This document shows positions 6,964 through 25,230 of a stretch of DNA of 64,000 nt, one piece after another; the stretch's first letter is position 1; each line of letters opens with the position of its first letter. The stretch covers positions 558,001 through 622,000 of the forward strand of contig NZ_JAGGML010000001.1 in assembly GCF_017875275.1 (NCBI RefSeq), written 5' to 3'. The translations under genes were made by a program, and so were the position numbers. This DNA comes from Xanthobacter flavus. Lineage in GTDB: Bacteria > Pseudomonadota > Alphaproteobacteria > Rhizobiales > Xanthobacteraceae. The notes below the pieces were generated by a model. That model saw only the letters and a program-made list of their open reading frames with translations, searched no databases and had not been told where the DNA came from.

Positions 6964-7629
6964 TCAGCCGGCCCCGCGCGACACCAGATGCAGGCCGAGC
7001 ACCATGATTCCCACCGCCGCGACCCAGCTGCCCGCCGCCCTGAGCGCGATGGGCCGCCAGCCGCCGACTCCGGAGAGGAAGGCGATGGCGCAGCCGAGCG
7101 CGAGGGTGACGAAGGCGTAGCCGATCACCGTCACGCCGGAAAGGAACAGGAAGCGGTCCGTGGTCGCCACCATGGCGGCGCCGTTCTGATAGCCATCCAG
7201 CAGGCCGAGCCCCACCGCCAGCACCAGGAGCGCGGCCAGCGGCAGCCTCAGCTGCGCGGCGACCGCGAGGCCGGTGAGCGCCACCAGCGTGACACCCGCG
7301 ACCGGCGCGAAGGGCGGCGGCGGCAGGACCAGCGAGAAGGCTCCGCCGGCGGCCAGCGCCAGCGGGAAGACGAGAACCACCCAGCGCGCCGTGCGCGGAC
7401 CCTGGAAGGCGGCGAGCACCGCCAGCGCGAGCCAGGGCAGCACCTGCTCGAAATCGGTCAGCGGGTGCAGCGCGCCGGAATAGAAATCGCCGAGCCGCGT
7501 GTCCACGAGGTGCGCATGGGCAAGGCCGGGCGTGAGCGCGAAGACGAGAGCGAGCGCGCCGGCCAACCCGGCGCGCCGAACCAGGGCAACCGCGCCGGCA
7601 AGGCCGGCGCGCTGGACAAGGCGTGTCAT
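6964..7629 (-). CDS. HupE/UreJ-like membrane protein with a degenerate metal motif
   Basis: Polytopic inner-membrane protein of 221 residues, last gene of the isomerase/HupE operon; its ATG overlaps the upstream HupE stop by 4 bases. The N-terminus resembles a signal peptide and contains an internal near-duplication (RAGLAGAVALV then RAGLAGALALV). Mature protein begins near AHAHLVDT. The segment GALHPLTDFEQVL aligns with HPLTGADHI of the neighbouring HupE but has lost the Gly-x-Asp-His that is thought to bind metal, while about six hydrophobic helices remain. HupE/UreJ proteins are proposed nickel or cobalt permeases; this paralogue may be a structural partner or carry another substrate. Function is not established. 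Confidence 0.75.
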   Translation of the reverse strand: MTRLVQRAGLAGAVALVRRAGLAGALALVFALTPGLAHAHLVDTRLGDFYSGALHPLTDFEQVLPWLALAVLAAFQGPRTARWVVLVFPLALAAGGAFSLVLPPPPFAPVAGVTLVALTGLAVAAQLRLPLAALLVLAVGLGLLDGYQNGAAMVATTDRFLFLSGVTVIGYAFVTLALGCAIAFLSGVGGWRPIALRAAGSWVAAVGIMVLGLHLVSRGAG

Positions 7630-8237
7630 TCGATGATCCCGATGGCACCGAGCAGGAAGTAGACACCGAGGCAGCCGATGGCGGCGCCGCAGGCCCGCAC
7701 CGCCTTGGCCCCCGCCTCCCAGCGCACCGCCACGCCGATGAGGATGCCGAGCAGGTGGAGCATGCCGGTGGCCACCACGAAGCCCACCGCGAACGCCACG
7801 GCATCGGCCGCATCCGGCAGTTCCTTGCCGTGCGCATAGCCGTGGAAGATGGCGAACACGCCGACGATGGTCGCCGCCACCCACAGCGGCGGGCGGATGT
7901 TCAGGGCCACCATGGCACCCAGCGCGATGCCGGACAGCGCGATCATCAGCTCGACGAAAGGCAGGTCGATGCCCATGACGCCGATGAGGCCGCCCACGGC
8001 CATTACCAGCGGGAAGGTGATGGGCAGCACCCAGATGGCCGGATTGCCGAGTTGCGCGCCCCACAGGCCCACCGCCACCATGGCGATGATGTGGTCCGCG
8101 CCGGTGAGCGGATGCAGGAACCCGCTCTGAAGGCCGATCTGCACGCCCGAGCCCGTATGGGCGAGGGCAGGCGACAGCGGGATCATGGCGAGCAGACCGG
8201 CGAGGACGAGCGCCGGATTCGGACGATGGGACTTCAT
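7626..8237 (-). CDS. HupE/UreJ family metal transporter
   Basis: 203-residue membrane protein with a cleavable-looking signal (ending near SPALAHTG) and about six helices. It carries the family signature HPLTGADHI in the first helix plus a second histidine motif IFHGYAHGKE and a third in GMLHLLGI. HupE/UreJ proteins are implicated in nickel or cobalt uptake for hydrogenase or urease, but no hydrogenase or urease gene is in the window, so the usual partner is absent here. Start at 8237 (ATG) is preferred because the signal peptide follows directly; the frame stays open about 100 bases further upstream. Second-last gene of the operon, 37 bases after the larger HupE-like gene. Confidence 0.88.
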   Translation of the reverse strand: MKSHRPNPALVLAGLLAMIPLSPALAHTGSGVQIGLQSGFLHPLTGADHIIAMVAVGLWGAQLGNPAIWVLPITFPLVMAVGGLIGVMGIDLPFVELMIALSGIALGAMVALNIRPPLWVAATIVGVFAIFHGYAHGKELPDAADAVAFAVGFVVATGMLHLLGILIGVAVRWEAGAKAVRACGAAIGCLGVYFLLGAIGIIE

Positions 8238-8274
8238 GACGAATGCCCTTCCAAGGAGTTTGCCCCGAGCAGGC

Positions 8275-9282
8275 TCAGATGCGGGTGAGGAACCAGAACG
8301 AGGCGACGGAGCCGATGACATAGGCCGGAACGGCCGCACCCCAGCGGGGCAGCAGCGCCTGCGCCTGCCGGTGCGCCCACATGAGGGCGAGCACGGCCAT
8401 GACGAACATCAGCTGGCCGATCTCCACGCCCACGTTGAAGAACAGGAGGGCGATGGGCAGCGTCGCCTGCGGAATGCCGAGCGCCGTGAGCGCCGTGGCG
8501 AAGCCAAGCCCATGCAGGAGGCCAAAGGCAAAGGCGACGACCCAGGGATAGCGCGCGGTGAGTCCCGGCTCGCCCCGCTGCAGCTTCACGATCTCGACGC
8601 CGACGAAGACGATGGACAAGGCGATGGCGGCATTCAGCGGCCGTTCCGGCACGCCGACCCAGCCGAAGGTGGCGGCGGCGAGCGAGATGGAATGGCCGAC
8701 GGTGAAGGCGGTGATGGTCTTCACCAGCCGCCAGCCGCCCTTCACGATCCAGATCAGGCCGAGCACGAACAAGAGGTGGTCGATGCCGCGCAGGATGTGG
8801 TCGATGCCGAGGTTGACATAGGTGTCCGCAAGATCGGCCCACACCGCGAGATTGGTGCCGGGCTCGCTGGCCACCATCATGGAGGGCTTGGCGGCGCTCA
8901 CAGTGTAGGCGACGGGCGACCCGTCGCGCGGAACCACGCGGATGGTCGCCACCGACTGCTTGCTGCCGAGGCCCATGAAGCTCAGGCGGCCGGTCAGGCC
9001 CCGCTCGCCGCAATACAGCTCCGGCGGAGTCCAGGTGCAATGGGCTGGAAAGATGGGCTGGAGCGTCACGTCCACCGGCGGCATGGTCCACTGGCCGATG
9101 AAGCGGCCCGGCGCGATCTCGCGCAGGGTGATGACCGCCATGGTCGCCTCATGCGCCCGCGCCACCGCCGAGGGCAGCAGCACGGCGGACGCCACGGCGA
9201 GCATCGCCAGAAGCCCGGCCAGCGGACGGCGCAGGGCCGCCGCGCCGCGACGCAGGAGGACTGTCGCGCAGCGGGCGATCAT
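8275..9282 (-). CDS. HupE/UreJ-type membrane protein with an extra periplasmic domain
   Basis: 335 residues. A signal segment ending at AVARAHEA is followed by a periplasmic domain of about 130 residues containing two cysteines (CTWTPPELYC), possibly a disulfide. About seven TM helices then follow, carrying the histidine motifs GIDHILRGIDHLLF, VGHSISLA and LLHGLGFATAL that mark the HupE_UreJ_2 group. The added soluble domain sets it apart from simple HupE. It overlaps the stop of the upstream isomerase gene by 4 bases, implying translational coupling and a joint role. Substrate unknown; a divalent metal is the family-based guess. Confidence 0.85.
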   Translation of the reverse strand: MIARCATVLLRRGAAALRRPLAGLLAMLAVASAVLLPSAVARAHEATMAVITLREIAPGRFIGQWTMPPVDVTLQPIFPAHCTWTPPELYCGERGLTGRLSFMGLGSKQSVATIRVVPRDGSPVAYTVSAAKPSMMVASEPGTNLAVWADLADTYVNLGIDHILRGIDHLLFVLGLIWIVKGGWRLVKTITAFTVGHSISLAAATFGWVGVPERPLNAAIALSIVFVGVEIVKLQRGEPGLTARYPWVVAFAFGLLHGLGFATALTALGIPQATLPIALLFFNVGVEIGQLMFVMAVLALMWAHRQAQALLPRWGAAVPAYVIGSVASFWFLTRI

Positions 9283-10142
9283 GGCTCACCGCGCCGGATG
9301 ACGTAGGCATTGCCGAGATCCCTGGTCGCGGCGATGCCGAGGATGCGCCGGCGCTCGTCCTTCCAGGCGAGGGCCACCTGGGCGGACACGTCGTCGAGGT
9401 CTGTCGGATGGCCGGGCGCATAGGCATCGAGCCGCACCACGTTCCAGCCGTCCCTGGAGGGCAGCACGCGCCACTCGCCCTGCGGCAGCGCCACCAGCGT
9501 TTCCACGAACGGCGCGCCGAACGACGGCTCCAGCGACTTGCGGGGGCGCTCGCCGAAGATGAGGGCGCGGTTCTGGATCTCCTCGGGTTCCTCGCCGACG
9601 AGGATCTGCTCCAGCGTCTGGCGTGCCTCCGCCTCGGCGTTCGGGCCGGTGAAGGGCACGGAAATGAAGCTGATGGTCTCCGGCACGTCATATTGCGCGC
9701 GCCGCTTCTCGTACCAGGCTTCGAGCTCGGCGCGGGTCGGCTCCTTCACCTCGACGCCGTTGAAGATGAGCAGGCGCATCTTGTGGACGATGCGGTCGCG
9801 GATCATCTCGTCGCCCTTGTCGAGGCCCTGCGCCATGGCCTCGCGGAAGGTGATCTCGTTCAGGATCCACACGTCGACCAGCTTGCGATACTCGTCCGCC
9901 CCCGGCTCGCGGCCCTCGTGGGTGGACTTGAAGGCGTCGACGATGCTCTGGCGCACCTCGGGGGTGACCTCGATGAGCTTTTCCTTTGGCACCGCGGGCG
10001 TCACGGCCGCATGGGCCGCGAAGATCATGGCGCCGAGCACCATGAACTGGAGCAGCGGCTCGCCGATGAGCCGCCTCAGAAGACTCTTCTTCCCCGTGCC
10101 GGCCGGGCCATTCGCGCCCGCATTCAAACCCGATGCCGTCAA
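9279..10142 (-). CDS. Membrane-anchored parvulin-like peptidyl-prolyl isomerase (SurA/PpiC type)
   Basis: 287 residues, first gene of the operon with the HupE-like proteins. One N-terminal TM anchor (LLQFMVLGAMIFAAHAAV, about 30-47) places the rest in the periplasm. A helical SurA-like N-domain (about 55-140) precedes a PpiC-like region (about 150-265). The parvulin core is divergent: the usual RHIL motif is replaced by ISFISVPF, so catalytic activity is uncertain and a chaperone role is as likely. The only in-frame start is TTG at 10142, eight bases after a GGGGG run; an out-of-frame ATG lies seven bases upstream. Coupling to a HupE-like gene suggests it helps fold or gate that transporter. 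Confidence 0.8.
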   Translation of the reverse strand: MTASGLNAGANGPAGTGKKSLLRRLIGEPLLQFMVLGAMIFAAHAAVTPAVPKEKLIEVTPEVRQSIVDAFKSTHEGREPGADEYRKLVDVWILNEITFREAMAQGLDKGDEMIRDRIVHKMRLLIFNGVEVKEPTRAELEAWYEKRRAQYDVPETISFISVPFTGPNAEAEARQTLEQILVGEEPEEIQNRALIFGERPRKSLEPSFGAPFVETLVALPQGEWRVLPSRDGWNVVRLDAYAPGHPTDLDDVSAQVALAWKDERRRILGIAATRDLGNAYVIRRGEP

Positions 10143-10416
10143 GACTCATCCCCCGCCCACAGGGATGCGGAAAAGCGCATCCCTGCCACTTCGTGCTTCC
10201 GCGACTGCTGGCGGCGCATCCCCTAGCGGGCAACCGGTGTCGGCTTGATGACAGCGCCGGCACCACATCGGGCACGAGCGTGCATCGCGGACGGAGGCGC
10301 CGCCAGCTTCGCCTGGCGAGCCAATTTTCCCTTACTCTATTGCAAAATAACGAAAAACCAGCCTTTTTAATGCCAAGCTAAAGCCGTAACAGACCAGGCC
10401 AGACGGAGCGATCACC

Positions 10417-10812
10417 ATGTCATTGACGGGACGAATAGTGCTTTTTGCGGTCGCGGGAGCCATCCCGCTCTTTGCCGCTTCGGGTCCTGCCTTCGCGCAG
10501 AAAATCGATATGTAGCGCGAATATTATCAAGGACGCTGGACGTGGTATGGCGTCCACAAGGCGAGAGCTTCGCCCAACAATACGAGCCGAATCCAATTCA
10601 ATACGCCAACCCAGGCCGTCTACTTCTATGATAAGATCTGCTGGAACGTCACCATCAACAAAGGCGTCGGCGGGGATATTTTTTCGTTCGACAAGAAAAA
10701 CTACTTTGAAATGAACGTCGTCGGCTCTCAGATCAAGGCAAGGTTTTGGATCGACATGAAGCCCCCGGCACGCTCGCCCGACGCCACGACCACCTTTTCG
10801 CGGTTCAATTGA
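10417..10812 (+). pseudogene. Small secreted protein gene interrupted by an in-frame amber codon
   Basis: ATG at 10417 opens a signal peptide (MSLTGRIVLFAVAG..., cleavage near AFA-QK). The frame meets TAG at 10513-10515 (codon 33) but then continues open for 98 codons to a TGA at 10810. The downstream part looks coding: no further stops, mixed aromatic and polar residues (GRWTWYGV, FFSFDKKNYFEM-like stretch, two possible N-glycan-type NxT motifs that are irrelevant in bacteria) and one Cys. Base composition is visibly poorer in GC than neighbouring genes, and the upstream 10320-10400 is AT-rich, suggesting acquired DNA. No family recognised. Most likely a recently inactivated secreted protein; a sequencing error or amber readthrough are alternatives. 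Confidence 0.6.
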
Positions 10813-11007
10813 TAGAACGATCGAAACCGCGGCCCACAGGGCGCCTCGATCGCTGACGCTTTGCGGACAAGAACGGACTTTCTTCCGGTGGCAGATCGGC
10901 GCCCCGCGTGCCGGCTGCCACCGCATTCCAATATCTGCAGTCCCGGCATTGCCCGTCGTCGCGCCAAACGCCTCCGCCCGTTGGTTTCCCGGCTCACCTT
11001 CCATGGC

Positions 11008-11039
11008 GTCACAGAACCTTCAGCACCCGGTCACAGAAC
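11008..11039 (+). promoter_or_regulatory. Two direct repeats 22 bp apart upstream of the PHP gene
   Basis: The 10-mer GTCACAGAAC occurs at 11008-11017 and again at 11030-11039, a period of 22 bp, close to two helical turns. It lies 58 bases before the start of the secreted phosphoesterase gene. The spacing fits a dimeric regulator site, but no regulator is identified. Confidence 0.35.
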
Positions 11040-11097
11040 ACCGCTAGGAGGCCCTCACGGGCGGACTGGCGTCCGTGGGAAAATCAGGGGTTGGAGC

Positions 11098-13032
11098 ATG
11101 AAGGGCGGGGTGCTGACACAGCAGCTCATCGCGGGGGCGTCGGTCCTCGCTGTTGCCGGCGGGGCGGCGTTGATGCCGACGCAGGCGTTCGCCGACAGCT
11201 ACATGGCCGGCGACTTCCACAATCACACACCGTGCTCGGACGGCCGCTCGTCGGTCGAGACCATGGTGAAGAAGGCGGTCCAGAGCTACGGCCTGGAATG
11301 GCTCGGCGCGGCCGATCACGGCGGCTCCAGCCCCCGCGACTGCCGCGTGGACGACCCGGAGGGTGACGGTTCCACCACCGGTACCGGCCGCTTCTTCGAT
11401 CAGGTCCAGGGCCTGGTGATCAAGGGCGACACGGCCACCTCGCAGGGCCACCGCTCCATGTGGCGTTGGCAGAGCGCGGAAGAGATCATCTTCCCCGAGC
11501 TCGTGCGCCTCGCCAAGGAGACCGGCGTGCCGATGCTCTATGCCGGCATCGAAACCAACGTGCCCGGCCACGAGCACACCTCCATGACGGTCATCGGCAA
11601 TCAGAAGCCGCAGAACGCCATCGAGAAGAAGGGTCTGTTCGGCAAGAAGAACAAGGACAAGGACACCGGAGACGCCAGCGCGGTGGCCGAGTTCGAATAC
11701 CGCTTCGACCGCTCCGACGCCGACTTCGGCAAGGGCGCGCCGACCCACAATTGGGAAGGCAAGGTCGCCAATGCGTCCGGCGTCGGCTCGGGCACGGCGA
11801 ACCACCGGAACAAGGCGGTTCCCTCCGTCCAGTGGCTGCAGAAGTACTATCCGCTCGACAGCTACTACGTGCCTGCGCATCTCGAGCGCGCCGGCGTGTT
11901 CAACCCGGACAAGAACAACGGCTTCAACATCGAGCACCTGCGCGACTTCAACAACGCGGGTCCGACCGTCGCCGTGGGCTTCGAGAGCCAGCCGGGCCAC
12001 CAGGCCTCGAACAATCGCGGCGAATACCGCGCCGGCTTCTGCGGCACCGGCTGCGACTCGGTGGGCGTGACCACGTTCGGCGGCACCGGCATCTATGCCG
12101 CCAAGATCGGCGGCGTGTGGGACGCGCTGCTGGGTGAAGGCCGCAACTGGTTCTTCTACGCCAGCTCCGACTGGCACAACCGCGGCGCCTTCTCCATCTA
12201 CGAGAAGGGCACCACCAACGACTTCTACCCCGGCGAGTACCAGAAGCTCTACATCCCGCGCCCCAAGCGCAATGTGGCGCTCCGCCCGCAGGTGGTGGTC
12301 GACGGCGTGCGCTCGGGCAACTCCTACTCGGTGCAGGGCGATCTCATCTCCGGCGAGCTCACCTATTCCGCCAAGGCCGGCCTCGGCGCCAAGGCGGGCA
12401 TGGGCGAAACGCTGGTCGTGAAGCGCGGCAAGTCGGTGACGCTGACCCTCGAGGTCAACGTGCCCACCGGCACCAACTACTCGCCCTACACCTTCAACAA
12501 CCCGTCGCTGGCCCAGATCGGCATCCAGGAGCCGCTCAACAAGCCGACGCTGCGTCAGGTGCAGTTCATCAAGGGTGACGTGACCGGCGTCGTGGCGCCC
12601 ACCAGCGCCAACTACACCGCCGGCACCAATGCCTCGGCGGCGATCATCGCCACCTTCGGCCCGTCCACCTGGAAGGCGCGCGGCACCAAGCGCACCATGA
12701 CCGTCACCATCCCGAACGTGCAGAACAACATGTACGTCCGCGTGCGTGGCTCCAACCTGCCGGCCTCCGTGCCGGCCGAGACCGACGCCCAGGGCAACCC
12801 GCTCAACGACTGGGATCCGGAAAACGCCGCGCAGGGCCCGTTCGTGCCCTGCAACGACGCCGCCTGCCCCTCGCACCTCGTGGTGCGCGACGGCCAGAAG
12901 ATCTCCAGCTACGACGTGGCCGCGTGGTCGGACCTGTGGTTCTACGCGAACCCCATCTTCATCCGCGTCTCCGACCAGCCGGAACTCCTCGTCGAGACCA
13001 ACGAGAAGCTCGCGGTCTCCCTGGCCAAGTGA
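11098..13032 (+). CDS. Secreted PHP-type metallophosphoesterase-like protein (DUF3604-like)
   Basis: 644 residues with an N-terminal signal peptide ending near TQAFA-DS, so exported. The mature protein opens with GDFHNHTPCSDGRSS and, 31 residues on, AADHGG: the HxH and DH metal-binding motifs of PHP phosphoesterases. A third histidine motif SSDWHNRG lies near 355. The C-terminal half (about 430-640) appears beta-rich and includes a CNDAACPSH cysteine pair. PHP enzymes use a multinuclear metal site to hydrolyse phosphoesters; the exact substrate is unknown. The ATG at 11098 follows a CAGGGG ribosome site and the signal peptide; the open frame extends further upstream without one. Divergent from the isomerase/HupE operon and followed by a terminator. 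Confidence 0.8.
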   Translation: MKGGVLTQQLIAGASVLAVAGGAALMPTQAFADSYMAGDFHNHTPCSDGRSSVETMVKKAVQSYGLEWLGAADHGGSSPRDCRVDDPEGDGSTTGTGRFFDQVQGLVIKGDTATSQGHRSMWRWQSAEEIIFPELVRLAKETGVPMLYAGIETNVPGHEHTSMTVIGNQKPQNAIEKKGLFGKKNKDKDTGDASAVAEFEYRFDRSDADFGKGAPTHNWEGKVANASGVGSGTANHRNKAVPSVQWLQKYYPLDSYYVPAHLERAGVFNPDKNNGFNIEHLRDFNNAGPTVAVGFESQPGHQASNNRGEYRAGFCGTGCDSVGVTTFGGTGIYAAKIGGVWDALLGEGRNWFFYASSDWHNRGAFSIYEKGTTNDFYPGEYQKLYIPRPKRNVALRPQVVVDGVRSGNSYSVQGDLISGELTYSAKAGLGAKAGMGETLVVKRGKSVTLTLEVNVPTGTNYSPYTFNNPSLAQIGIQEPLNKPTLRQVQFIKGDVTGVVAPTSANYTAGTNASAAIIATFGPSTWKARGTKRTMTVTIPNVQNNMYVRVRGSNLPASVPAETDAQGNPLNDWDPENAAQGPFVPCNDAACPSHLVVRDGQKISSYDVAAWSDLWFYANPIFIRVSDQPELLVETNEKLAVSLAK

Positions 13033-13156: not shown

Positions 13157-15802
13157 ATGTCCCAGGTTCAGGCTTCGCAGTCCCGATCCGCCGCGTCGCA
13201 GGACCTGACGCTCGGCCGAAACGCGCGCACCGGCATCGCCATAACGCTGGTCGCGACCCTCTCGGGCTTCGCGGGCCTCGGTTACGAGATCGTCTGGACC
13301 CGCATGCTCGCCGTCAGCCTCGGCCATGAGCTGGTGGCGGTGCTGGGGGTGATTTCCGCCCTGTTCGGCGGCCTCGCATTGGGCAGCCTGCTGCTGGGCC
13401 GAGCCATCGCCGCGAGCCGGCGGCCCGCCGTCTGGTATGCCGGCCTTGAGCTGGTGATCGGCGCCTGGGCGCTGGTTCTCATCGTCGCGACGCCGCACTT
13501 CGGCGATCTCGTGCCCACGCTGGTGCCGGTGGATGCCTCGGCGCTGCGGCAATGGTCCGTCGCCTTCGCTTTGCCCTTCGTGCTGCTGCTGCCGGCGACC
13601 CTCGCCATGGGCGCCACCCTGCCGGCGCTTGAAGCCGTGCTCGCGCCGCGACTCGCCTCCGGGGCGGCGGTGGGGCACGTCTATGCCGCCAACACCTTCG
13701 GCGCGGTGGCGGGCACGCTGGCCACCGCCTTCCTCATCATCCCCGCCCTCGGCCTCAATGCGACGCTGGTTCTGTGCGCCGTCCTGAATGCGCTGTGCGC
13801 GGCAGCGATGCTGGCCGTAGCCCGGAACTCCGCAGCGGCGCCGGTCACTCGCCCGATTCGCGCGCCTGAGACCGCATCCGCCGCGCTACCCGTTCTGGTC
13901 CCCCTGTTCCTCACCGGCCTTCTCGGCATCGGCTATGAGGTGCTGACAGTGCGGGTGCTGAGCCAGATTCTCGAAAACACCATCTACACCTTCGCCATCC
14001 TGCTCGCCTGCTACCTTGCCGGCACCGCGCTCGGGGCGGCGTTCTATGCCCGGTGGGAGGCGAATCGCGGGCCGGGTGGAGAGGGCACGATCGGCTGGCT
14101 CGTCACACTCACCGCCCTCGCCTGCCTCGCCGGAGCGGCGCTGCTCGGCGCCTCCGGGGTGATTCTCTCGGGCCTCAAGGCCGTGTTGCCCGTCACAGTG
14201 GCCGGCCGGCTCTCGGCCGAGGTCGCCATCGCCGCGCTGGCCTTCCTGCCACCCACCCTCGCCATGGGCGCGCTGTTCACCGCCCTTGCCCAGCGCGCAT
14301 CCGACCGGCTCGGCGGCGTCGGACCGGGGCTCGCGGCCAATACGCTGGGCGCTGCGCTGGCGCCCATGCTGTTCGGCCCCGTCCTGCTGCCCCTGATGGG
14401 GGCCAAATACGCCTTCGCGCTGCTTGCCGCCGCCTATGTGCTGGCGCTGCCGCTCCGGAGCCGCGCGGCGCTGGCCGGCGGCGGGCTGACGCTGACGGCG
14501 ACGCTGGCGCTGGTGCTCGCGCCCATCTCCCTGCGCTTCGTGCAGGTCCCGGAAGGCGGCGCGCTGGAATGGCACCGCGACGGCGTGATGGCGGCGGTGA
14601 GCGTGGTGCGCAATTCCGCCGGCGACCGCCACCTGCAGGTGAACAACCATTTCCGCATGGGCGGCAGCGCCTCCATGCGCTCGGACCACCGGCAGGCGCA
14701 CATCCCTTTGCTGCTGCATCCGAATCCGCACAGCGCCCTGTTCCTCGGCCTCGGCACTGGCGCGACCCTCTCCGCCGCCGGCGACCATCCCGGCCTCAAG
14801 GTGGAGGGCGTGGAACTGGTGCCCGAGGTGGTGGAGAGCTTCCCCTATTTCGAGCGCACGCCGCCACGCCTCGCCGGCAATCCGGACATCCGCATCCATG
14901 TGGCCGATGCCCGCCGCTTCGTGCGCGCCGGGACGACGCCCTATGACGTGATCGTCGCGGACCTCTACCACCCCTCCGTGGACGGCTCCGGCGCGCTCTA
15001 TGCCCGCGAGCATTTCGCCGCCATCCGCGACCGCCTCGCGCCGGACGGGCTGTTCTGCCAGTGGCTGCCGCTGCACCAGCTCGACATCGCGACGCTGCGG
15101 GTGATCGTGCGCACCTTCCTCGACGTGTTTCCGGACACGACGGCATGGCTCGCCCAATTCAGCGTGGAGACGCCGCTCGTGGCGCTGGTGGGCCGCCGCA
15201 CGCCCGCCGCCTACCCGGCCGACTGGGTGGAGCGCCGCGTGCGCGACCGCGCACTCGCGGCGGGGCTGAAGGCGGTGGATATGGACGGCAGCTTCGCCCT
15301 CTTCGGCCTCCACCTCGCCGGCCCGGCGGAGCTGGCCCGCTTCGCCGGCGATGCCCCGCTCAACACCGACGACCGGCCGGTGGTGACGGCCGCCGCCCCG
15401 GGCACCGCCTATGCCGCCAGCGAGCGGCCGGCCGACCGTCTGGTGGCGCTCCTCGCGGCGCTTCATCCGGCGCCGGAGGCGCTGCTGGCCGGGGCCGATC
15501 CCGCCACGCAGGCGCGGCTCGCCGCCTACTGGACCGCGCGGGACGGCTATATCGGCATGGGCGCCCGGGCGCTGGCGGCGAAGGGTCCGCGCGACGTCAT
15601 CGGCACGCTGGCGCCGCAGCTCATCGAGCTGGTGCGCATCAGCCCGGATTTCGATGCCGCCTACGCGCCCGTGCTCGCCATGGCGCGACAGCTCGCCGTC
15701 ACTGATCCTTCGGGCGCCCGGCGGCTCCTAGAAGCATTGGATAGGGCGAACCCGAGCCGGCCCGAGGCGCGGCGGCTGCTGTCCCGGCTGCCGCCGGCGT
15801 GA
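13157..15802 (+). CDS. Fused multi-TM permease / spermidine synthase-like protein
   Basis: 881 residues. The N-terminal half (about 25-465) is a membrane domain of about 12-14 helices of the fused MFS/spermidine synthase type, starting LSGFAGLGYEIVWTRML. The C-terminal half carries a spermidine-synthase-like Rossmann fold: ALFLGLGTGATLS is the nucleotide-binding glycine loop, VEGVELVPEVV its acidic strand, and VADLYHPSVDGSG corresponds to the catalytic loop. Whether it aminopropylates polyamines is uncertain; the gatekeeper region differs from soluble SpeE. A tail of about 130 residues after the enzyme fold looks helical. It follows the PHP gene after a terminator, and its 3' end overlaps the convergent CopC-like gene by 104 bases. 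Confidence 0.85.
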   Translation: MSQVQASQSRSAASQDLTLGRNARTGIAITLVATLSGFAGLGYEIVWTRMLAVSLGHELVAVLGVISALFGGLALGSLLLGRAIAASRRPAVWYAGLELVIGAWALVLIVATPHFGDLVPTLVPVDASALRQWSVAFALPFVLLLPATLAMGATLPALEAVLAPRLASGAAVGHVYAANTFGAVAGTLATAFLIIPALGLNATLVLCAVLNALCAAAMLAVARNSAAAPVTRPIRAPETASAALPVLVPLFLTGLLGIGYEVLTVRVLSQILENTIYTFAILLACYLAGTALGAAFYARWEANRGPGGEGTIGWLVTLTALACLAGAALLGASGVILSGLKAVLPVTVAGRLSAEVAIAALAFLPPTLAMGALFTALAQRASDRLGGVGPGLAANTLGAALAPMLFGPVLLPLMGAKYAFALLAAAYVLALPLRSRAALAGGGLTLTATLALVLAPISLRFVQVPEGGALEWHRDGVMAAVSVVRNSAGDRHLQVNNHFRMGGSASMRSDHRQAHIPLLLHPNPHSALFLGLGTGATLSAAGDHPGLKVEGVELVPEVVESFPYFERTPPRLAGNPDIRIHVADARRFVRAGTTPYDVIVADLYHPSVDGSGALYAREHFAAIRDRLAPDGLFCQWLPLHQLDIATLRVIVRTFLDVFPDTTAWLAQFSVETPLVALVGRRTPAAYPADWVERRVRDRALAAGLKAVDMDGSFALFGLHLAGPAELARFAGDAPLNTDDRPVVTAAAPGTAYAASERPADRLVALLAALHPAPEALLAGADPATQARLAAYWTARDGYIGMGARALAAKGPRDVIGTLAPQLIELVRISPDFDAAYAPVLAMARQLAVTDPSGARRLLEALDRANPSRPEARRLLSRLPPA

Positions 15803-16181
15803 CGGGCGGGATTTCCCCCGCCTTTGCCACGGTGAAGGCGATGGAGCCGCCGTCCGCATGGTGGTGGCGGCGCAGATAGCCGTTCCATTCCACCAGATAC
15901 TTGCCGGGCGGCAGGGGCTGGGTCATGCGGAACGCGGTCTGGCGCACCTCCTGCGACGGACGCGCCCAATCGGTCGGCCACACGGCCTTGTCGTCGAGGC
16001 TCACCACCCGCACGTCGTCGAGCCGGAACTCGTCGGTGAAGTCGATGGTGACTTCCGGCTGCGTCTCGATCAGCACCGCGTTGGCGTTCGGAACGGACTG
16101 GTCGAACGCGCACTGGGCCTGCGCCCCTGTCGCCGCGAGGCCGACACCTAAAACGACCGCGATTGCTGCATGAAGGCGCAT
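15699..16181 (-). CDS. Periplasmic CopC-fold protein with altered copper ligands
   Basis: 160 residues; signal peptide MRLHAAIAVVLGVGLAATGA ends at AQA-QC. The mature part reads like a CopC/YcnJ-type beta barrel: PEVTIDFTDEFRLDDVRVV then LPPGKYLVEWNGYLRRHHHADGG. Classical CopC begins with a copper-binding His after cleavage; here the mature start is Gln-Cys and the usual DGH motif becomes HHHADGG, so metal binding, if any, differs. The last 30 residues are low-complexity and lie antisense to the preceding gene. Two tandem copies of the GGGAGAG ribosome site precede two possible starts (16181 and 16199); the first gives the cleaner signal peptide. Role unknown. Confidence 0.65.
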   Translation of the reverse strand: MRLHAAIAVVLGVGLAATGAQAQCAFDQSVPNANAVLIETQPEVTIDFTDEFRLDDVRVVSLDDKAVWPTDWARPSQEVRQTAFRMTQPLPPGKYLVEWNGYLRRHHHADGGSIAFTVAKAGEIPPVTPAAAGTAAAAPRAGSGSPYPMLLGAAGRPKDQ

Positions 16182-16231
16182 GGGGCTCTCCCTGAACATG
16201 GGCCTCTCCCTGAAAAGGCGTGCTCTTGCGT

Positions 16232-16909
16232 TCAAGTGAAGTGGATGGCGTAGCCGAAATTGTCGAGGCGGTCGGGAATGGCGTTGAACGCCACCGAGAT
16301 GCGCCGCCCGCCCTTGTTCACCGGCACCTCGTGCAGCAGGTAGCTCGGGAACATCACAAGATCGCCCGCGCCCGTCTGCGGCATGGCGAACTTGCCGCCG
16401 TTGAAGGCGTTGATGCGGGCATTGGGATTGGTGTTGCCGAAGATGAAGCCGCTGCCGCCGATGGCCTTGTGGAAGACGATGTTGGCGGAGGGGTGCGCTT
16501 CCGTCAGATAGACGACGCCGGAGATGAAGCTGTTGGCATGGGTGTGGATGGCCTGGTGCCCGCCCGGTTCCAGCACGTTCACCCAGATTTCCTTGATCTG
16601 CCAGCGCAGCGCCTCGCCGAACAGCACCTCGCCGAACTCCGTCACCTTGGGCAGCACCAGCGCGCCGAGCCGCGACAGCAGGGTGTCCGACTGGTCGCCC
16701 GCCACGGGCGTGTGGGAGAGCAGGTCCGAATAGGCGTTGGTGAGCGAGGTGCGGTCCGCCACCTCGGCCGCGAGCGCCGCCACGTCGGCGGGGCCGACGA
16801 GGCCCTCGACGCGCATCACGGGGGTGGGGAAAAGTCCGATGAGCTGGGTCACGACAGGCCGGCCGATGTGCGCGAGACGGGGAGACGGCGCACTTTCCCT
16901 ATGGCCCAT
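16232..16909 (-). CDS. Putative 2-oxoglutarate/Fe(II) oxygenase (TIGR02466-like)
   Basis: 225 residues resembling the TIGR02466 family of cupin-fold 2OG-Fe(II) oxygenases. Visible family marks: LIGLFPTPVM at the N-terminus, GGHQAIHTHANSFISGVVYL with candidate iron-binding histidines, and a distal FPSYLLHEVPVNKGGRRIS giving the second His and the Arg that would bind 2-oxoglutarate. Substrate unknown; relatives often sit in phage or secondary-metabolism contexts. The ATG at 16909 gives 225 residues, while a GTG at 16852 just before TQLIGLF is the closer match to where the family begins. It precedes the CopC-like gene on the same strand with a 50-base gap. Confidence 0.75.
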   Translation of the reverse strand: MGHRESAPSPRLAHIGRPVVTQLIGLFPTPVMRVEGLVGPADVAALAAEVADRTSLTNAYSDLLSHTPVAGDQSDTLLSRLGALVLPKVTEFGEVLFGEALRWQIKEIWVNVLEPGGHQAIHTHANSFISGVVYLTEAHPSANIVFHKAIGGSGFIFGNTNPNARINAFNGGKFAMPQTGAGDLVMFPSYLLHEVPVNKGGRRISVAFNAIPDRLDNFGYAIHFT

Positions 16910-16966
16910 GACCCCACGATGACGACCTGAGGTGACGCGCGGCCGGCAAACGCCCGAAGCCAACCG

Positions 16967-17656
16967 TCAATGGCTCGAATCGAGATCCGCCGGAGAGGGC
17001 TTCGTGCGGCGCGGCACCAGCACCTGCCCGGCCACCGGCTTCGCATTGCCGACCTGCGCCGCGGCGAACGGGCCTTCGGAGCCGCGCGGCGGCTGGGGGC
17101 CGCCCTTGCCGGGGGCGGGCAAGGCGAGGGTCACGGTGTCGGCACTGCCGTGCATGACCACATCGCGCGGGCCGACGCTGCGCAGCGTCCAACCGCCATG
17201 GGCATCGCCGACCTTGAGGCGCACGATCTGGCCGCTGGCCTGATCGGTGAAGATGCCGATGCTGCCGGCCGTGCTCACCACCGTGCCCATCAGCGCGAGT
17301 TGCGGACGCGGCGCGGCGACGGCGGCGGGCGGTGCGGAGGGCGGCGGAGGCGCCAGCGCCACCGGCTGATCGGGCGGGCGGCGCGAGGGCGTGAACAGGG
17401 GGCGGTCGCGGGTCGCCGACAGGCTTTCGATGGGGACCGCCCACAGGGGATTTCCGCGCTCGGGGTCGGCGCTGGCCGTGGGGGGGCGGGCGGGCGGCTG
17501 GCCGGGCGCGAGAAATTCGATCTGCGGCGGGGGCGCCTCCACCTCGGTCGAGGCCGCGGAAACAGCGGTGGCGATCCCCGCGACGGCAACCGGAAGGGCA
17601 AGGGCGAGCGCAAGCAAGCGCCGACGGCGCGCGGATGGGGGGACGAGGCGGATCAT
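16967..17656 (-). CDS. Type II secretion GspC/GspN-like inner-membrane component
   Basis: Last gene of the minus-strand secretion operon, 229 residues. One N-terminal TM (about 13-33), then a Pro-rich linker, the conserved patch LSATRDRPLFTPSRRPP, and a beta-rich domain (about 118-175: LALMGTVVSTAGSIGIFTD, VGDAHGGWTLRSV) like the HR domain by which GspC contacts the secretin. Such proteins are annotated as GspC or GspN in related genomes. Its ATG overlaps the gspM stop by 4 bases. The C-terminus is low-complexity and lacks an obvious PDZ domain, which shortens it relative to enterobacterial GspC. Confidence 0.7.
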   Translation of the reverse strand: MIRLVPPSARRRRLLALALALPVAVAGIATAVSAASTEVEAPPPQIEFLAPGQPPARPPTASADPERGNPLWAVPIESLSATRDRPLFTPSRRPPDQPVALAPPPPSAPPAAVAAPRPQLALMGTVVSTAGSIGIFTDQASGQIVRLKVGDAHGGWTLRSVGPRDVVMHGSADTVTLALPAPGKGGPQPPRGSEGPFAAAQVGNAKPVAGQVLVPRRTKPSPADLDSSH

Positions 17657-18264
17657 CGCGCCCCCCGCCAGCGGCCATGGACGGTCAGCATCACCTGGAT
17701 GCGTCCCTCCTGCCCCCGTGCTTCGGCGCCATCGCCCTGCATCCGTCCCTCGGCTCCATCCGCGTCCAGCTGCCCCAGAGCAGCGCCCTGCCCCTGGGCC
17801 TGGACCACAAGGGGATCCACGAACAGGAAGGGCTGCCCCGTCTCGATATCATATAGCAGGTTCTGCAGATCCTCCTGCCCGATATCGATGGTCGCGGCCA
17901 CCGCCACGAAGCCAGGACCCAGCGGCGAGGCGCCAAGCTCCACGCTGGAAGAGACGAGATGCCCGCCCGCCGCATCGGCGGCGGCGGCGACGCGCTCGGC
18001 CAGCGATGCGCCAGCCACCGTCACCGTCGCGCCCTCGAGGAAGGGGGAGCCGCGCTCTTCGGCCCCGGCGGCGCCGGGCCGGGGGGGCCTTCGCCCTTCC
18101 AGCCGGTCCAGCAGATCCTGCGCCTCCGCCACCGCCGCGCGCTTGGCCAGCACGTCCGCCACCTCGCCGAACGCGACGGCCAGAAGCACGGCGACGAGCA
18201 CGCCATAGCCCAGCGCGGCCAGCGCCAGCGTGCGGCGGGAACGGGCGGGCGCGGCGGCGGTCAC
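17653..18264 (-). CDS. gspM: Type II secretion system protein GspM
   Basis: 203-residue bitopic inner-membrane protein: short cytoplasmic N-terminus, TM at about 12-32, a coiled-coil segment (AKRAAVAEAQDLLDRLEG) and a periplasmic ferredoxin-like domain (about 75-150, ending DIETGQPFLFVDPLVV) typical of GspM. It pairs with GspL in the assembly platform. It starts with GTG at 18264 overlapping the gspL stop by 4 bases. The C-terminal 50 residues are Gly/Gln-rich (QAQGQGAALGQ). Confidence 0.85.
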   Translation of the reverse strand: MTAAAPARSRRTLALAALGYGVLVAVLLAVAFGEVADVLAKRAAVAEAQDLLDRLEGRRPPRPGAAGAEERGSPFLEGATVTVAGASLAERVAAAADAAGGHLVSSSVELGASPLGPGFVAVAATIDIGQEDLQNLLYDIETGQPFLFVDPLVVQAQGQGAALGQLDADGAEGRMQGDGAEARGQEGRIQVMLTVHGRWRGAR

Positions 18265-19340
18265 TGGGTCACCTCGAACGGCACGGTAATGTCGGCCTGG
18301 ATCTGGAAGCGCTCCCCCGCATCCCCCGGCTGCCGGGTGGTGGGGGCGACGAAGGTGGCGGCGGAGAAGTGCTTCGATTCCTCCAGCAGCCGGACGAGGG
18401 AGGGCGCCTCGCGGGAGACGCCGGTCAGCTCCACCTTGCCGTTCTGGATGGTCAGGGCCGAGAGATAGGTGTGGTCGGGCAGCACCTGGGAGAGCGCCTC
18501 CAGCACGAGCACGGTCGGCGCCTGCGCGCGCTTGGCCTTCTCCAGACCGCGCAGGGCCGCGCCCTCCGCGCCCAGTCCGTCGCGGGCGGCGGCGATGGCG
18601 CGGCGGCGGGCGGCGATGGCCTGGTCCAGCGTCTGCTGCTCCTCGTCGAGGCTGCCGCCCAAGAAGCCGGACACGCCGGACGCGAATGTCGCCGCGAGGG
18701 CCGCCGCCGCAAGCACGCCGAGCAACACTTGCCTGAGGCGTGCCGTGCCGGCCCCTTCGCCGGACGCGCCGGCATGAACGGTGATGGACGCGCCATCGCC
18801 TTGACGGGTCGTCAGCACCAGATGGCCGACGCCGAGCGCCTTCAGCGCATCGAGGGCGGGGGCGAGACGAGCGCGCGGGGTGGCGGCGACCATCACGCGG
18901 ATGCGGCCGTCGCCCAGCGGTTCGGGCGCCGTCCAGCCGAAGGCGGCCTCTGCCGCGCTCCAGGGCGTGAGCCGGTCGATCTGCGCCCGCACGATGCCGT
19001 CGAGATAGGGCCTCGCCCCCTCCGGCAGATCGAGCGGACGGAACAGGAAGCGGGCGGGGTCAAGCGCCAGTTCCACCTCCCGGCCCTTCAGCGACGCTGC
19101 GACCTCGGGCGGCACGCCATGCGATGCGGCGGCCGCAAGGGGGAACGGTACGGCGCCGGGAAGGACGAAGGCGCCGTCTTCCCGCTCCTCGATCCGCACC
19201 GCACGCATCCGGCCGAGCCGCGCCCGGCCGGCGGCGAGGGCCGTGGCGAGGGCCGTCGCCGTCAGGTCGACGAAGGCCGAGAAGCCATCGATGGCGCGGG
19301 TCAACAGCGAGGCGTCGGGTGCGCCCGGAACCAGGCTCAT
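18261..19340 (-). CDS. gspL: Type II secretion system protein GspL (PilM/PilN-like)
   Basis: 359 residues. The cytoplasmic actin-like half is short and divergent (ELALDPARFLFRPLDLPEG, then VRAQIDRLTPWSAAEAAFGW, a patch shared with GspL/PilM proteins). A single TM (about 205-228) precedes a PilN-like periplasmic part with a coiled coil (DEEQQTLDQAIAARRRAI) and the small fold LSALTIQNGKVELTGVS. GspL anchors the GspE ATPase to the membrane and binds GspM. Start ATG at 19340 overlaps the gspK stop by 4 bases. Confidence 0.85.
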   Translation of the reverse strand: MSLVPGAPDASLLTRAIDGFSAFVDLTATALATALAAGRARLGRMRAVRIEEREDGAFVLPGAVPFPLAAAASHGVPPEVAASLKGREVELALDPARFLFRPLDLPEGARPYLDGIVRAQIDRLTPWSAAEAAFGWTAPEPLGDGRIRVMVAATPRARLAPALDALKALGVGHLVLTTRQGDGASITVHAGASGEGAGTARLRQVLLGVLAAAALAATFASGVSGFLGGSLDEEQQTLDQAIAARRRAIAAARDGLGAEGAALRGLEKAKRAQAPTVLVLEALSQVLPDHTYLSALTIQNGKVELTGVSREAPSLVRLLEESKHFSAATFVAPTTRQPGDAGERFQIQADITVPFEVTQ

Positions 19341-20278
19341 GGCCGTCCTCCCGTCGTCTTCCGGCGGGCGGCGGGAGGCGCGTCGTCGGCAAGCTCCCGC
19401 CACGAGAGATCGCGCCACAGGAGCACGCGATAAGGATCGACACCGAAGTCCCGCAAAAGGATCACCGCCTCCGTACCCAGCCGCCGTCCGTCGTCGAACG
19501 CGACGCGCACGGTCACGCGCGCCGTGTCCCCGGCCGTGGTGGCGATGCCCGAGGCGCCCGCGACGACGCTGCCTTCGCCGCCCGCCTTGTCCTCGCCGGA
19601 GGTCGCGAAGGTGGCGGTGTCGATGTCGTCCATCCCCTGCCCCGCCTTGGCCAGCGCCGCGCGCACCATCGGCCCCGCGATGTCCGGATTCACTTCCCGC
19701 CGTCCGGCATAGACCGTGAGGTGAGGCAGCGCGGCGGCGACCACGTCGGCCGGCAGGCCCGGCACGCGGGCCAGTTCCGCCGCATGGGCGAAGGCGCCCT
19801 GCCCATGTCCCGCCTCGGCATCGCCGACCGCAGAAGACTTGTCGCCCGAGGCGGGCGCGCGCCAGGCGGCGATGCTGGCGGCATAGGCCTTTGCCGCCGG
19901 TTCCGGCACGCCCAACGCCTGGAACAGGCCGGACAGCACGGGCGGCGCGGCGGCGTTGAGATCGATGCGGGCCGCCTCGTCGGCGAAGCGGGCGGAGACG
20001 TTGGCCTCGCCCATGCGAAAGCGCACCTCGCCGCTGGTCGCCCGCTCCTGCGCCGGCACGGAGAGGAGACGCAGCGCCGCCAGTTCCACCCCCGCCATCG
20101 CCAGCCCATCCGCGCGCAGCGTCTGCGTGCGCACCGCGGAGGCCGACGCCGTGTCCGCCACATAGACCGCATAGACGGCGGTGAAGGCGGCCAGGGCGGC
20201 GAGAATCCACAGCACGGTCACGAGGATGAAGCCGCGCTCCGTCCCTGCCGGGGCGCGCCTGAGTCGGATCGCGCTCAT
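19337..20278 (-). CDS. gspK: Type II secretion minor pseudopilin GspK
   Basis: 313 residues, the large tip pseudopilin. The prepilin-type N-terminus reads GTERGFILVTVLWILAALAA, with cleavage expected after the Gly and no Glu at +5, as usual for GspK. The large alpha domain includes IDLNAAAPPVLSGLFQALG and the helix-hairpin-helix-like ELARVPGLPADVVAAALP (about 165-185), followed by TVYAGRREVNPD. It caps the pseudopilus together with GspI and GspJ, whose genes lie immediately upstream. ATG at 20278 overlaps the gspJ stop by 4 bases. Confidence 0.92.
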   Translation of the reverse strand: MSAIRLRRAPAGTERGFILVTVLWILAALAAFTAVYAVYVADTASASAVRTQTLRADGLAMAGVELAALRLLSVPAQERATSGEVRFRMGEANVSARFADEAARIDLNAAAPPVLSGLFQALGVPEPAAKAYAASIAAWRAPASGDKSSAVGDAEAGHGQGAFAHAAELARVPGLPADVVAAALPHLTVYAGRREVNPDIAGPMVRAALAKAGQGMDDIDTATFATSGEDKAGGEGSVVAGASGIATTAGDTARVTVRVAFDDGRRLGTEAVILLRDFGVDPYRVLLWRDLSWRELADDAPPAARRKTTGGRP

Positions 20279-21000
20279 TGCGTCGCTCCCCCGCCGTTGC
20301 CGCCCGCGCCGGAGACCGCTTTCGCGCGCGATCCGCTGAAGCCGATGGCGGTCCCGCAGATGGGCTTGGTGGCGTCGGCGGCGCAGAAGGCGGGCGCGTC
20401 CGAGCGGATGGTGACGGAGGTGGAGGCGCCGGTGGCCCGCCCCCCCTCGCGCACCACCATGCGCACCGCGCGCGGCAGTTCCTCCTCGCCGCGCCATTCG
20501 GCGTGCCATGCCCCGTCGCGGCCGGCATAGGAGAAGGAGACGCTGACCGGCGGGCGCAGCAGCCGCACCGGCGCGCCGAACGACGGAAGCCCCCCGGCCT
20601 CGGCCGGCGGCGCATAGGGCGCGGCGCGGCGGACCATGGCGGAGCCGCGCCCGTCCGGCACGGGCGCCAATTCGACAACCTCCAAGCCCCGCGCCGCGCC
20701 GGGCGCGAGCACTTCGCGCACGAAGACCACGCGCTCGGACGATCCCTGGAACAGGGTCTCCGCCCCACCCTGCACGGCAGGCAGGAAAGCGGCGGCGGCG
20801 AGGTCCGCCGCCATGCGGTCGAGGGCGAGGGCGACAAGTTCGCTCTGCTGCACCCGCCCCAGCCCGCGCTGCCAGGCGGGGAGCCATTTCGCCGTCACCA
20901 TGGCGATGGCGGCGAGCACCAGCCCGGTGAGCGTCATCGCCACCAGGATCTCGATGAGGCCGAAGCCGGCGCGGCGGCGGCGCGAGGCGATGGTGCTCAT
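20275..21000 (-). CDS. gspJ: Type II secretion minor pseudopilin GspJ
   Basis: 241 residues. Prepilin motif RAGFGLIEILVAMTLTGLVL (cleavage after Gly12, Glu at +5) followed by a globular beta domain (FLPAVQGGAETLFQGSSERV, VSFSYAGRDGAWHAEW) typical of GspJ. The C-terminus contains a probable disulfide pair (FCAADATKPIC) and a Gly/Ala-rich tail. Part of the I-J-K tip complex. ATG at 21000 overlaps the gspI stop by 4 bases. Confidence 0.9.
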   Translation of the reverse strand: MSTIASRRRRAGFGLIEILVAMTLTGLVLAAIAMVTAKWLPAWQRGLGRVQQSELVALALDRMAADLAAAAFLPAVQGGAETLFQGSSERVVFVREVLAPGAARGLEVVELAPVPDGRGSAMVRRAAPYAPPAEAGGLPSFGAPVRLLRPPVSVSFSYAGRDGAWHAEWRGEEELPRAVRMVVREGGRATGASTSVTIRSDAPAFCAADATKPICGTAIGFSGSRAKAVSGAGGNGGGATQ

Positions 21001-21398
21001 TGCGGCCGGCTCCGCACAAGGCGCACCGTCTCCAGCGCCACCATCTCGCCGCCGGGGCCGCGCACGCGGATGCGGATGTCGAGGGGCGTCCAGGGCGCAG
21101 TGTCCGGCAGGCCGGCGAGCGTCATAGGCTGCACGTCCATCTGCCAGCGATGACCGGCGATCTCGCCTTCGGTGCGGCCGATCTGGATGAGATCGCGGCT
21201 CGGAATGCCCGTCTCCACGGCGCGGGCGGTCTGCAGCAGCGCCACCCGCCGCTCCAGGATCCTGGTGCCGCGCAGGCTGGAGCCCGCCACCATGGCGATG
21301 GCGCCGAGAGAGGCCGCGACCACCGCCAGCGCCACCAGCACCTCGATCAGGGTGAAACCGGCGGTGCGGCGCCGGAGGCGCAGATCAGGAGCGGCCAC
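20997..21398 (-). CDS. gspI: Type II secretion minor pseudopilin GspI
   Basis: About 133 residues; prepilin signature RRTAGFTLIEVLVALAVVAA with cleavage after Gly and Glu at +5, then a short beta domain (GHRWQMDVQPM, LDIRIRVRGPGGEMVALETV). No ATG is available upstream of the motif; the GTG at 21398 gives a basic leader of 14 residues and a 14-base overlap with gspH, while a TTG at 21407 is also possible. Forms the tip complex with GspJ and GspK. Confidence 0.88.
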   Translation of the reverse strand: MAAPDLRLRRRTAGFTLIEVLVALAVVAASLGAIAMVAGSSLRGTRILERRVALLQTARAVETGIPSRDLIQIGRTEGEIAGHRWQMDVQPMTLAGLPDTAPWTPLDIRIRVRGPGGEMVALETVRLVRSRPQ

Positions 21399-21861: not shown

Positions 21862-21875
21862 GCGACGTCTCCGGC

Positions 21876-22325: not shown

Positions 22326-22352
22326 GGGGGCGGGACCTTGATTCACGTTTCG

Positions 22353-23561: not shown

Positions 23562-23565
23562 GGGC

Positions 23566-25230
<1,665 letters not shown>

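Follow-up and report, generated by a model that had tools for sequence, protein, structure and literature searches.

A parvulin-permease gene pair that accompanies two families of presumed secreted PHP-like hydrolases, seen from a Xanthobacter flavus locus

A locus of Xanthobacter flavus brings together a presumably secreted PHP-fold protein, a membrane-anchored parvulin-like protein and permeases of the HupE type. It lies in a window of 64,000 nucleotides, the whole stretch of DNA analysed here, which corresponds to positions 558001-622000 of the 5.35 Mb, single-contig genome. A sequence-only reading of this window had listed three HupE-type proteins, a parvulin-like isomerase and a divergent secreted PHP protein at 6964-13032, and this content was confirmed by Pfam searches and by the fold of a predicted model. 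The genes in Table 1 were named by searches with Pfam and NCBIfam models. Open reading frames (ORFs) were drawn by a script that uses no gene finder, so their starts often lie too early; for the four minus-strand genes the spans used with Pfam were 6967-7635(-), 7629-8288(-), 8278-9282(-) and 9282-10142(-), and likely starts give the final coordinates. With these starts, the two 4-base overlaps and the one 37-base gap described earlier among the four genes were reproduced. The boundary of the unit had been drawn at 13032, which proved too narrow: the conserved genes run on to 16963.

Table 1. Genes of the conserved unit, in positions of the window
Gene product	Position	Strand	Model match	Place in the unit
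Degenerate HupE (HupE3)	6964-7629	-	PF04955 HupE_UreJ, 51.8 bits (cut-off 23)	Optional; travels with classical HupE
Classical HupE-type permease	7626-8237	-	PF04955, 203.4 bits	Optional
HupE_UreJ_2 permease with short periplasmic beta domain and His after presumed signal peptide	8275-9282	-	PF13795, 173.9 bits	Core
Membrane-anchored parvulin-like protein (Rotamase_2)	9279-10142	-	PF13145, 56.6 bits (cut-off 27)	Core
Presumably secreted PHP-fold protein, presumed metallohydrolase with C-terminal beta-sandwich; start is ATG	11098-13032	+	Structural matches	Presumed client
Membrane protein fused to spermidine-synthase-like domain	13157-15802	+	NF037959, 97.4 bits (cut-off 40)	Core of PHP variant
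CopC-like periplasmic protein	15699-16235	-	PF04234, 36.3 bits	Found in alphaproteobacterial loci
2-oxoglutarate (2OG)-Fe(II) oxygenase, TIGR02466 family	16232-16963	-	PF13759, 76.7 bits; TIGR02466, 65.3 bits (cut-off 62.5)	Core of PHP variant

Relatives of two PHP peptides in genome contigs numbered 127, of which the best 80 loci were retained; with a Comamonadaceae plasmid and the window they make up 82 loci, from which our profiles were built. Partner genes were counted by profile search in the 50 loci whose PHP gene is flanked on each side by 7 kb or more. The parvulin and HupE_UreJ_2 genes were each found in 48 of these, the oxygenase in 47 and the synthase in 45, and the full five-gene set (these four with the PHP gene) was present in 43. 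Among the best 80 of the 127 relatives are loci from Xanthobacter, Hyphomicrobium, Methylocapsa, Rhodospirillales, many Burkholderiales and some gammaproteobacteria, along with a few delta-type records (NaphS2, a Sorangium metagenome-assembled genome (MAG), a Myxococcales record and a deltaproteobacterial MAG). On the Comamonadaceae plasmid the order is NikR, TonB receptor, two small genes, PHP, synthase-like, parvulin, HupE_UreJ_2, 2OG oxygenase and PCuAC-like, and the five shared proteins are 47, 44, 32, 45 and 45% identical to those of the window. Recurrence of the set in alpha-, beta-, gamma- and a few deltaproteobacterial records bears out the earlier proposal of a functional unit, a conclusion that is well supported.

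The nearest loci are those of Xanthobacter, with a PHP protein 95% identical to that of the window; L017 and L018, from Xanthobacter autotrophicus, also carry the set. In the closest loci as a group (Xanthobacter and kin, 77-95% PHP identity) the flanks are also common, as would be expected if the genes were mere neighbours whose coincidental synteny had been inherited in related genomes. We consider this explanation extremely improbable: the set persists across lineages with its genes in varying order and on varying strands, and genes that flank it in the window drop out, DegP being found in 3 and a GspC-like gene in 9 loci of an 85-locus control set that includes four distant plasmid loci. 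As to exceptions, two genomes (L053, L044) carry their parvulin match elsewhere, in L053 beside a synthase gene on contig C4, and in a third (L062) the synthase is on another contig. A synthase match at E <= 1e-30 was not found in the genomes of L022, L023, L028 and L047. Draft assemblies or MAGs are among these exceptions.

The 50 loci with sufficient flanks also contain optional partners: a PCuAC-like protein (26 loci), a small PEP-CTERM protein (21), a TonB receptor (17), HupE and degenerate HupE (14 each), a small lipoprotein (10) and a CopC-like protein (9). The three HupE-type genes that the sequence-only reading had listed together are divided by these counts: HupE_UreJ_2, present in 76 of the 82 loci, belongs to the core, and the other two are optional. 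HupE_UreJ_2 and the parvulin gene share a strand in 76 of 76 loci, with a median ORF gap of -3. The small secreted protein with a PEP-CTERM sorting signal lies near the PHP gene in 32 of the 82 loci (for example L073 2489-3139); the signal was tested in one.

The classical HupE keeps HX5DH and FHGxAHGxE, which we take to be the nickel motifs of HupE, in 18 of 19 ORFs; the one exception, that of L025, is a HupE3 ORF. HupE3 has HX5DH and HGxAHGxE in 0 of 19, despite its PF04955 score, and the two genes occur together in 18 of 19 loci. These patterns suggest an active and an inactive subunit. The NiFe hydrogenase of the window genome has its own, separate HupE at a distance of about 11 kb, so a role as hydrogenase helpers is improbable for the window HupEs and was set aside; urease was not searched for.

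The predicted model of the PHP protein (predicted local distance difference test score, pLDDT, 74.9) matches the PHP phosphoesterases 3e38 (Z 13.7 over 227 residues), 2anu (Z 13.5) and 3e0f (Z 10.3), with the next listed entry at 4.5. When the protein is read against what we take to be the order of the PHP ligand motifs, ten ligand positions (His40, His42, Asp47, His73, Glu151, His157, His159, His260, Asp357 and His359) are retained in 82 of 82 ORFs. The Pfam PHP model PF02811 gave 17.1 bits, under its cut-off of 26.4, and a Foldseek search with the model returned nothing at E <= 0.001 in the PDB and nothing in viral structures. Judged by predicted fold and ligand residues, the protein is a divergent member of the PHP superfamily. 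Its one N-terminal hydrophobic segment, recognised by hydropathy only, indicates that it is presumably secreted. DUF3604 was rejected as its identity: PF12228 did not match the window enzyme at E 0.01, and it matched nothing in the window genome. The control genomes of that genome search gave no match either, but the model did find matches in 25 of 398 genomes when searched in the same way. The clade and DUF3604 both touch the CehA/McbA model NF038032, always under its cut-off of 80, at 42.6 bits for the window PHP protein, 36-48 bits for three other members of the clade and 18.2 bits for one of four DUF3604 proteins.

The 398 genomes are a sample of Pseudomonadota, drawn evenly and including that of the window, and within it the full-length PHP clade is confined to the window genome; eight others matched in part, with scores of no more than 228 bits (against 892). 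The parvulin profile, built from PHP-linked rows only and applied at E <= 1e-30 (two rows, at E 1e-11 and 4e-11, were left out), found 30 copies of this subfamily in 26 genomes. HupE_UreJ_2 was found in 86 genomes, 81 of which were used after 11 rows at E > 1e-30 had been left out, and it lies within 1.5 kb of all 30 parvulin copies. DUF3604 lies within 6 kb of 26 of the 30 (as a fragment only in G162). Of the other copies, one has DUF3604 at 41 kb, one has it on another contig and two are without it, namely that of G348 and that of the window genome, where the PHP protein stands in its place. Conversely, the parvulin is present in 24 of the 25 genomes with DUF3604 (Fisher p = 4e-35, which is not an exact probability because the genomes are related), and the subfamily is nearly confined to such clients, 24 of its 26 genomes having DUF3604 and one more the PHP protein.

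Loci around the permease agree with these counts. Among 20 fetched loci with a long-form permease, chosen by hand, the parvulin gene directly adjoins it in 13, and ten large ORFs tested beside parvulin-permease pairs all proved to be DUF3604 (E < 1e-200). One locus (L119) holds three DUF3604 genes, assigned by coordinates, with HupE, HupE_UreJ_2, parvulin and a small HupE3-like protein recognised by eye. In an unrooted FastTree phylogeny, one branch with support 1.0 divides 72 PHP-linked parvulins from 17 other pair-forming ones, two of which (L111, L114), although counted on the DUF3604 side, have no DUF3604 close by. The unrooted permease tree likewise separates the PHP-linked set (71), with one stray, at support 0.999; both trees omit four Xanthobacter loci and short ORFs and use only the last 300 or 330 residues of each ORF. 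Two secreted families, DUF3604 and the PHP clade, are accompanied by the same parvulin-permease pair. The link to PHP/DUF3604 genes suggested earlier holds in that the pair sits with DUF3604 in other genomes, and fails for the window enzyme itself. By our own pairing of the alignments, the ligand order HxH, H, E, H, H, DxH can be read in both families, and the matching residues do not vary among 10 DUF3604 sequences; a PDB sequence search with DUF3604 gave no match. DUF1254/DUF1214 genes (by Pfam) or sulfatase-like ORFs (by eye) neighbour DUF3604 in some loci (L095 2454-4112, L104 12138-13754, L105 6341-7864) and are a possible lead to its substrate.

The partners themselves offer further clues. 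The parvulin-like protein has one hydrophobic segment, again by hydropathy only; below E 0.2 the PDB gave it a single match, 3rfw (cell-binding factor 2), at profile positions 82-183, which overlaps the isomerase domain (135-253) only partly. In the model of HupE_UreJ_2 (pLDDT 83.6), a helix at the N-terminus is followed by a beta domain (48-137) and by a membrane part made of helices. In the 76 ORFs, His44, Glu45, Cys82 and Cys91 are kept in 75, with His44 directly after Ala-Arg-Ala, an AxA-like stretch after which the mature protein presumably starts; DUF3604-linked permeases have His or Asp at the mature start. His162, Asp168, His169 (HX5DH), His197, His257 and Glu287 are found in 72 to 75 of 76 ORFs (His162 and Asp168 in 75), with most of the remainder explained by gaps in truncated ORFs, and the HX5DH pattern as a whole is kept in 74. 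Weak structural similarity links the beta domain to two zinc-binding proteins, ZrgA (Z 6.4 over 87 residues) and PA4063 (Z 5.8); the latter is described as possibly acting as a chaperone or sensor of zinc (PMC8561739). For the membrane part there is a match to BbZIP, a ZIP transporter, at Z 6.2. These resemblances could reflect a common arrangement and serve as leads only, because all VIA-align rows for the permease have Z < 9 and chloroplast TIC chains rank higher (8.5, 7.9); Foldseek returned nothing for this model at E <= 0.001 in the PDB. Short forms of HupE_UreJ_2 (about 230-260 residues; L115 7202-7900, L117 10753-11487, L121 near 9835-10290) lie by ORFs resembling metal efflux systems of the resistance-nodulation-division type, recognised by eye, and the window genome has a short form about 3 kb from an ORF that by eye is NicO/RcnA transporter-like.

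We propose that the parvulin-like protein and HupE_UreJ_2 make up a dedicated module of the envelope for secreted PHP-like metallohydrolases, serving their maturation or metal supply, a reading to which we give an even chance. The hydrolase would be exported unfolded; the membrane-anchored parvulin-like protein would hold or fold it beside the permease; and the permease, through a periplasmic domain with an N-terminal His, would supply a transition metal for the active site. In the sampled lineages the usual client would be DUF3604, with the other PHP clade in this role in the window and some 80 further loci. Service to a secreted enzyme is suggested because the two genes are inseparable and follow two secreted PHP-like families, and metal supply because the client is of a metal-dependent type and the permease belongs to the HupE family and has an N-terminal His. 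What the analysis shows is the association of the genes, the involvement of two clients, and the folds and motifs of the proteins; we infer a physical interaction, a transfer of metal and its direction, the kind of metal, which could be Ni, Cu, Zn or Mn, and the kind of reaction. A broader form of the proposal, which we hold only tentatively, is a general periplasmic metalation machine, in which a parvulin-like holder and a translationally coupled HupE-type permease with a metal-fishing domain would load whichever secreted PHP-like hydrolase the genome carries, so that one module would serve two enzyme families without detectable profile similarity.

Several observations count against the proposed module. 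Characterised HupE proteins import metal, while the loading of a periplasmic enzyme needs metal outside. The TonB receptors, and NikR, which stands beside a TonB receptor in 2 of the 82 loci (L009, L058), fit metal uptake equally. No such parvulin accompanies 77 of the 107 HupE_UreJ_2 copies, so this permease family at large has other functions. The pair occurs without a DUF3604 match in G348, DUF3604 pieces occur without the parvulin in G122, and the NaphS2 genome (L089) encodes the PHP protein with no parvulin match at E <= 1e-5. Profile comparison of DUF3604 with the PHP clade gave a probability of 12% and no convincing alignment. Finally, residues 38-45 of the permease model, which contain the presumed mature N-terminus with its His, have pLDDT < 50 and are its least certain part.

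The first two of these points lead to the main rival, metal scavenging, in which the secreted PHP-like enzyme would degrade a metal-binding or metal-containing compound, either in the periplasm or outside the cell, the HupE-type permeases would import the metal set free and the parvulin would aid envelope assembly only. Known HupE is an uptake permease (cited in PMC12537917), and the TonB receptors, the two further HupEs and the pairing of NikR with a TonB receptor all suit a scavenging system. Metal capture and uptake are also proposed for related permeases in the 2025 study (PMC12537917). NikR and the receptors are a minority among the loci, however, and an Rfam search found no known RNA element in the window and, in six receptor-bearing loci, a cspA element only and no metal riboswitch. 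Uptake alone also leaves unexplained why the parvulin and permease genes are inseparable (30/30, 76/76). The earlier suggestion of a metal-loading or metal-scavenging unit stands as to the unit; between its two functions we lean towards loading, and scavenging seems to us rather unlikely.

The two remaining core genes of the PHP variant encode candidate enzymes. The synthase-like domain aligns with spermidine synthases, and the position of the second Asp of the D..D motif in 1inl, which we take to be the catalytic Asp of spermidine synthase, is occupied by His in 62 and by Gln in 5 of the 67 ORFs that reach it; a canonical polyamine (spermidine) synthase was rejected on this ground. The oxygenase keeps HxH...H...R, with positions 140, 142, 211 and 221 retained in 68, 67, 65 and 65 of 68 ORFs (the rest being X or gap), and its PDB relatives are two uncharacterised structures, 3bvc and 2rg4. 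Both proteins would probably work on what the hydrolase consumes or produces. Their frequency around the PHP gene could also mark a metabolic pathway operon, in which hydrolase, synthase-like protein and oxygenase degrade or modify one substrate, the parvulin and HupE are general helpers and any metal role is incidental. Such an operon would suit L044 and L089, which have a PHP gene and a synthase match without parvulin, permease or oxygenase nearby, and it would suit the nearest named family, NF038032 (matched below cut-off), which includes carbamate hydrolases. It fits poorly with 27 loci around HupE_UreJ_2 in the sampled genomes (17 with parvulin), which contain no oxygenase and, of the synthase, only one 61-bit fragment, while parvulin and permease stay together, and with the near confinement of the parvulin subfamily to its clients. 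We regard the pathway operon as improbable: synthase and oxygenase are seen with one client only, in contrast to the pair, which follows both.

Two putative metal-binding proteins were examined as parts of a copper system. The CopC-like protein, found in 11 of the 82 loci (alphaproteobacterial), has Gln at its mature start and keeps HxH and D, in an HxHxDG stretch, in 11 of 11 sequences, and DGH is absent from all 11. The PCuAC-like protein, found in 39 of the 82 loci, many of them beta- or gammaproteobacterial (for example L034 9180-9728, L009 15253-15711), shows the full Met/His copper motif in 0 of 39 and one HxM anywhere in 5 of 39. The ligands used for comparison are those we take to be canonical, an N-terminal His and a DxH-type motif for CopC and the full motif for PCuAC. 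With the N-terminal His missing from every CopC-like protein and the full motif from every PCuAC-like one, a canonical copper-chaperone system was set aside. The CopC-like protein could possibly bind metal through its HxHxDG stretch. A role for copper becomes less likely, although this stretch is kept and the related RbAng-1a is described as binding Cu and Ni (PMC12537917).

Two features of the window lie between or beside the genes of the unit. About 720 bases between the parvulin and PHP genes (10263-10982) have no match in the two closest relatives, L014 and L015, which have 27-35 bases in their place. They hold a small ORF, 10417-10812 (+), with a signal-peptide-like start and an early in-frame stop, for which no convincing relative was found among the fetched loci. 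Directly after the unit, at 16967-25236 (-), lie type II secretion-like genes, with GspM above its NCBIfam cut-off and K, F and E above their Pfam cut-offs. The GspK cluster is present in 9 loci (the window, Xanthobacter kin and Hyphomicrobium), a hint that the PHP protein could be a type II secretion substrate there.

To our knowledge, metal delivery to exported periplasmic metalloenzymes is little understood outside copper enzymes, and the question becomes testable with a module of two genes that follows two families of secreted hydrolases. For DUF3604, whose function is not known, the association offers a clue to function, and it indicates that HupE/UreJ-type proteins have partners beyond the hydrogenase or urease of their name. 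In a literature search judged from titles and the starts of abstracts, with subscription papers and supplements outside its reach, we found no description of the gene set or of the DUF3604-parvulin-permease association; the nearest work is that of 2025 on the HupE/UreJ-2 'anglerase' (PMC12537917), and DUF3604 appears as an annotation in a table of one paper (PMC11925237).

Among the closest known systems are the loci in which DUF3604 stands with Rotamase_2 and HupE_UreJ_2. Parvulin subfamily and permease are the same and the ligand order is similar, whereas the window enzyme lacks a PF12228 match and its locus has the synthase and oxygenase in addition. The window PHP protein shares its predicted fold with 3e38, 2anu and 3e0f, which are titled predicted or putative phosphoesterases; it is larger and presumably secreted. 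The HupE of the Rhizobium hydrogenase is a nickel permease, and its HX5DH and FHGxAHGxE motifs are kept in the window HupE, whose gene is not near the hydrogenase of the window genome, which has another HupE nearby. The permease has a relative in the HupE/UreJ-2 protein Ang-1 'anglerase' (Nat Commun 2025), whose periplasmic domain binds Cu and Ni and begins with an N-terminal His (PMC12537917). The section of that paper on Ang-1 gives DUF4198, indigoidine-synthase-like and PfkB neighbours, and parvulin, PHP and DUF3604 are not named in it. A permease without a parvulin partner, used as a positive control, finds 9gce, the crystallised domain of RbAng-1a, at 2e-28, whereas neither the window permease, which has no PDB match of any kind at E <= 10, nor the permease profile finds it; the parvulin-linked permeases thus appear to form a separate branch. 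From the mature start to HX5DH there are about 120 residues in PHP-linked permeases (median, 71 measured), about 130 in DUF3604-linked ones (13 measured), and 163 and 170 in two forms without parvulin. The architecture is nonetheless alike: as described for Ang-1, the window permease combines a PF13795 membrane part with a periplasmic beta domain and a His directly after the presumed signal peptide, and the nearest structural neighbour of the beta domain is V. cholerae ZrgA for RbAng-1a and, weakly, ZrgA for the window protein as well.

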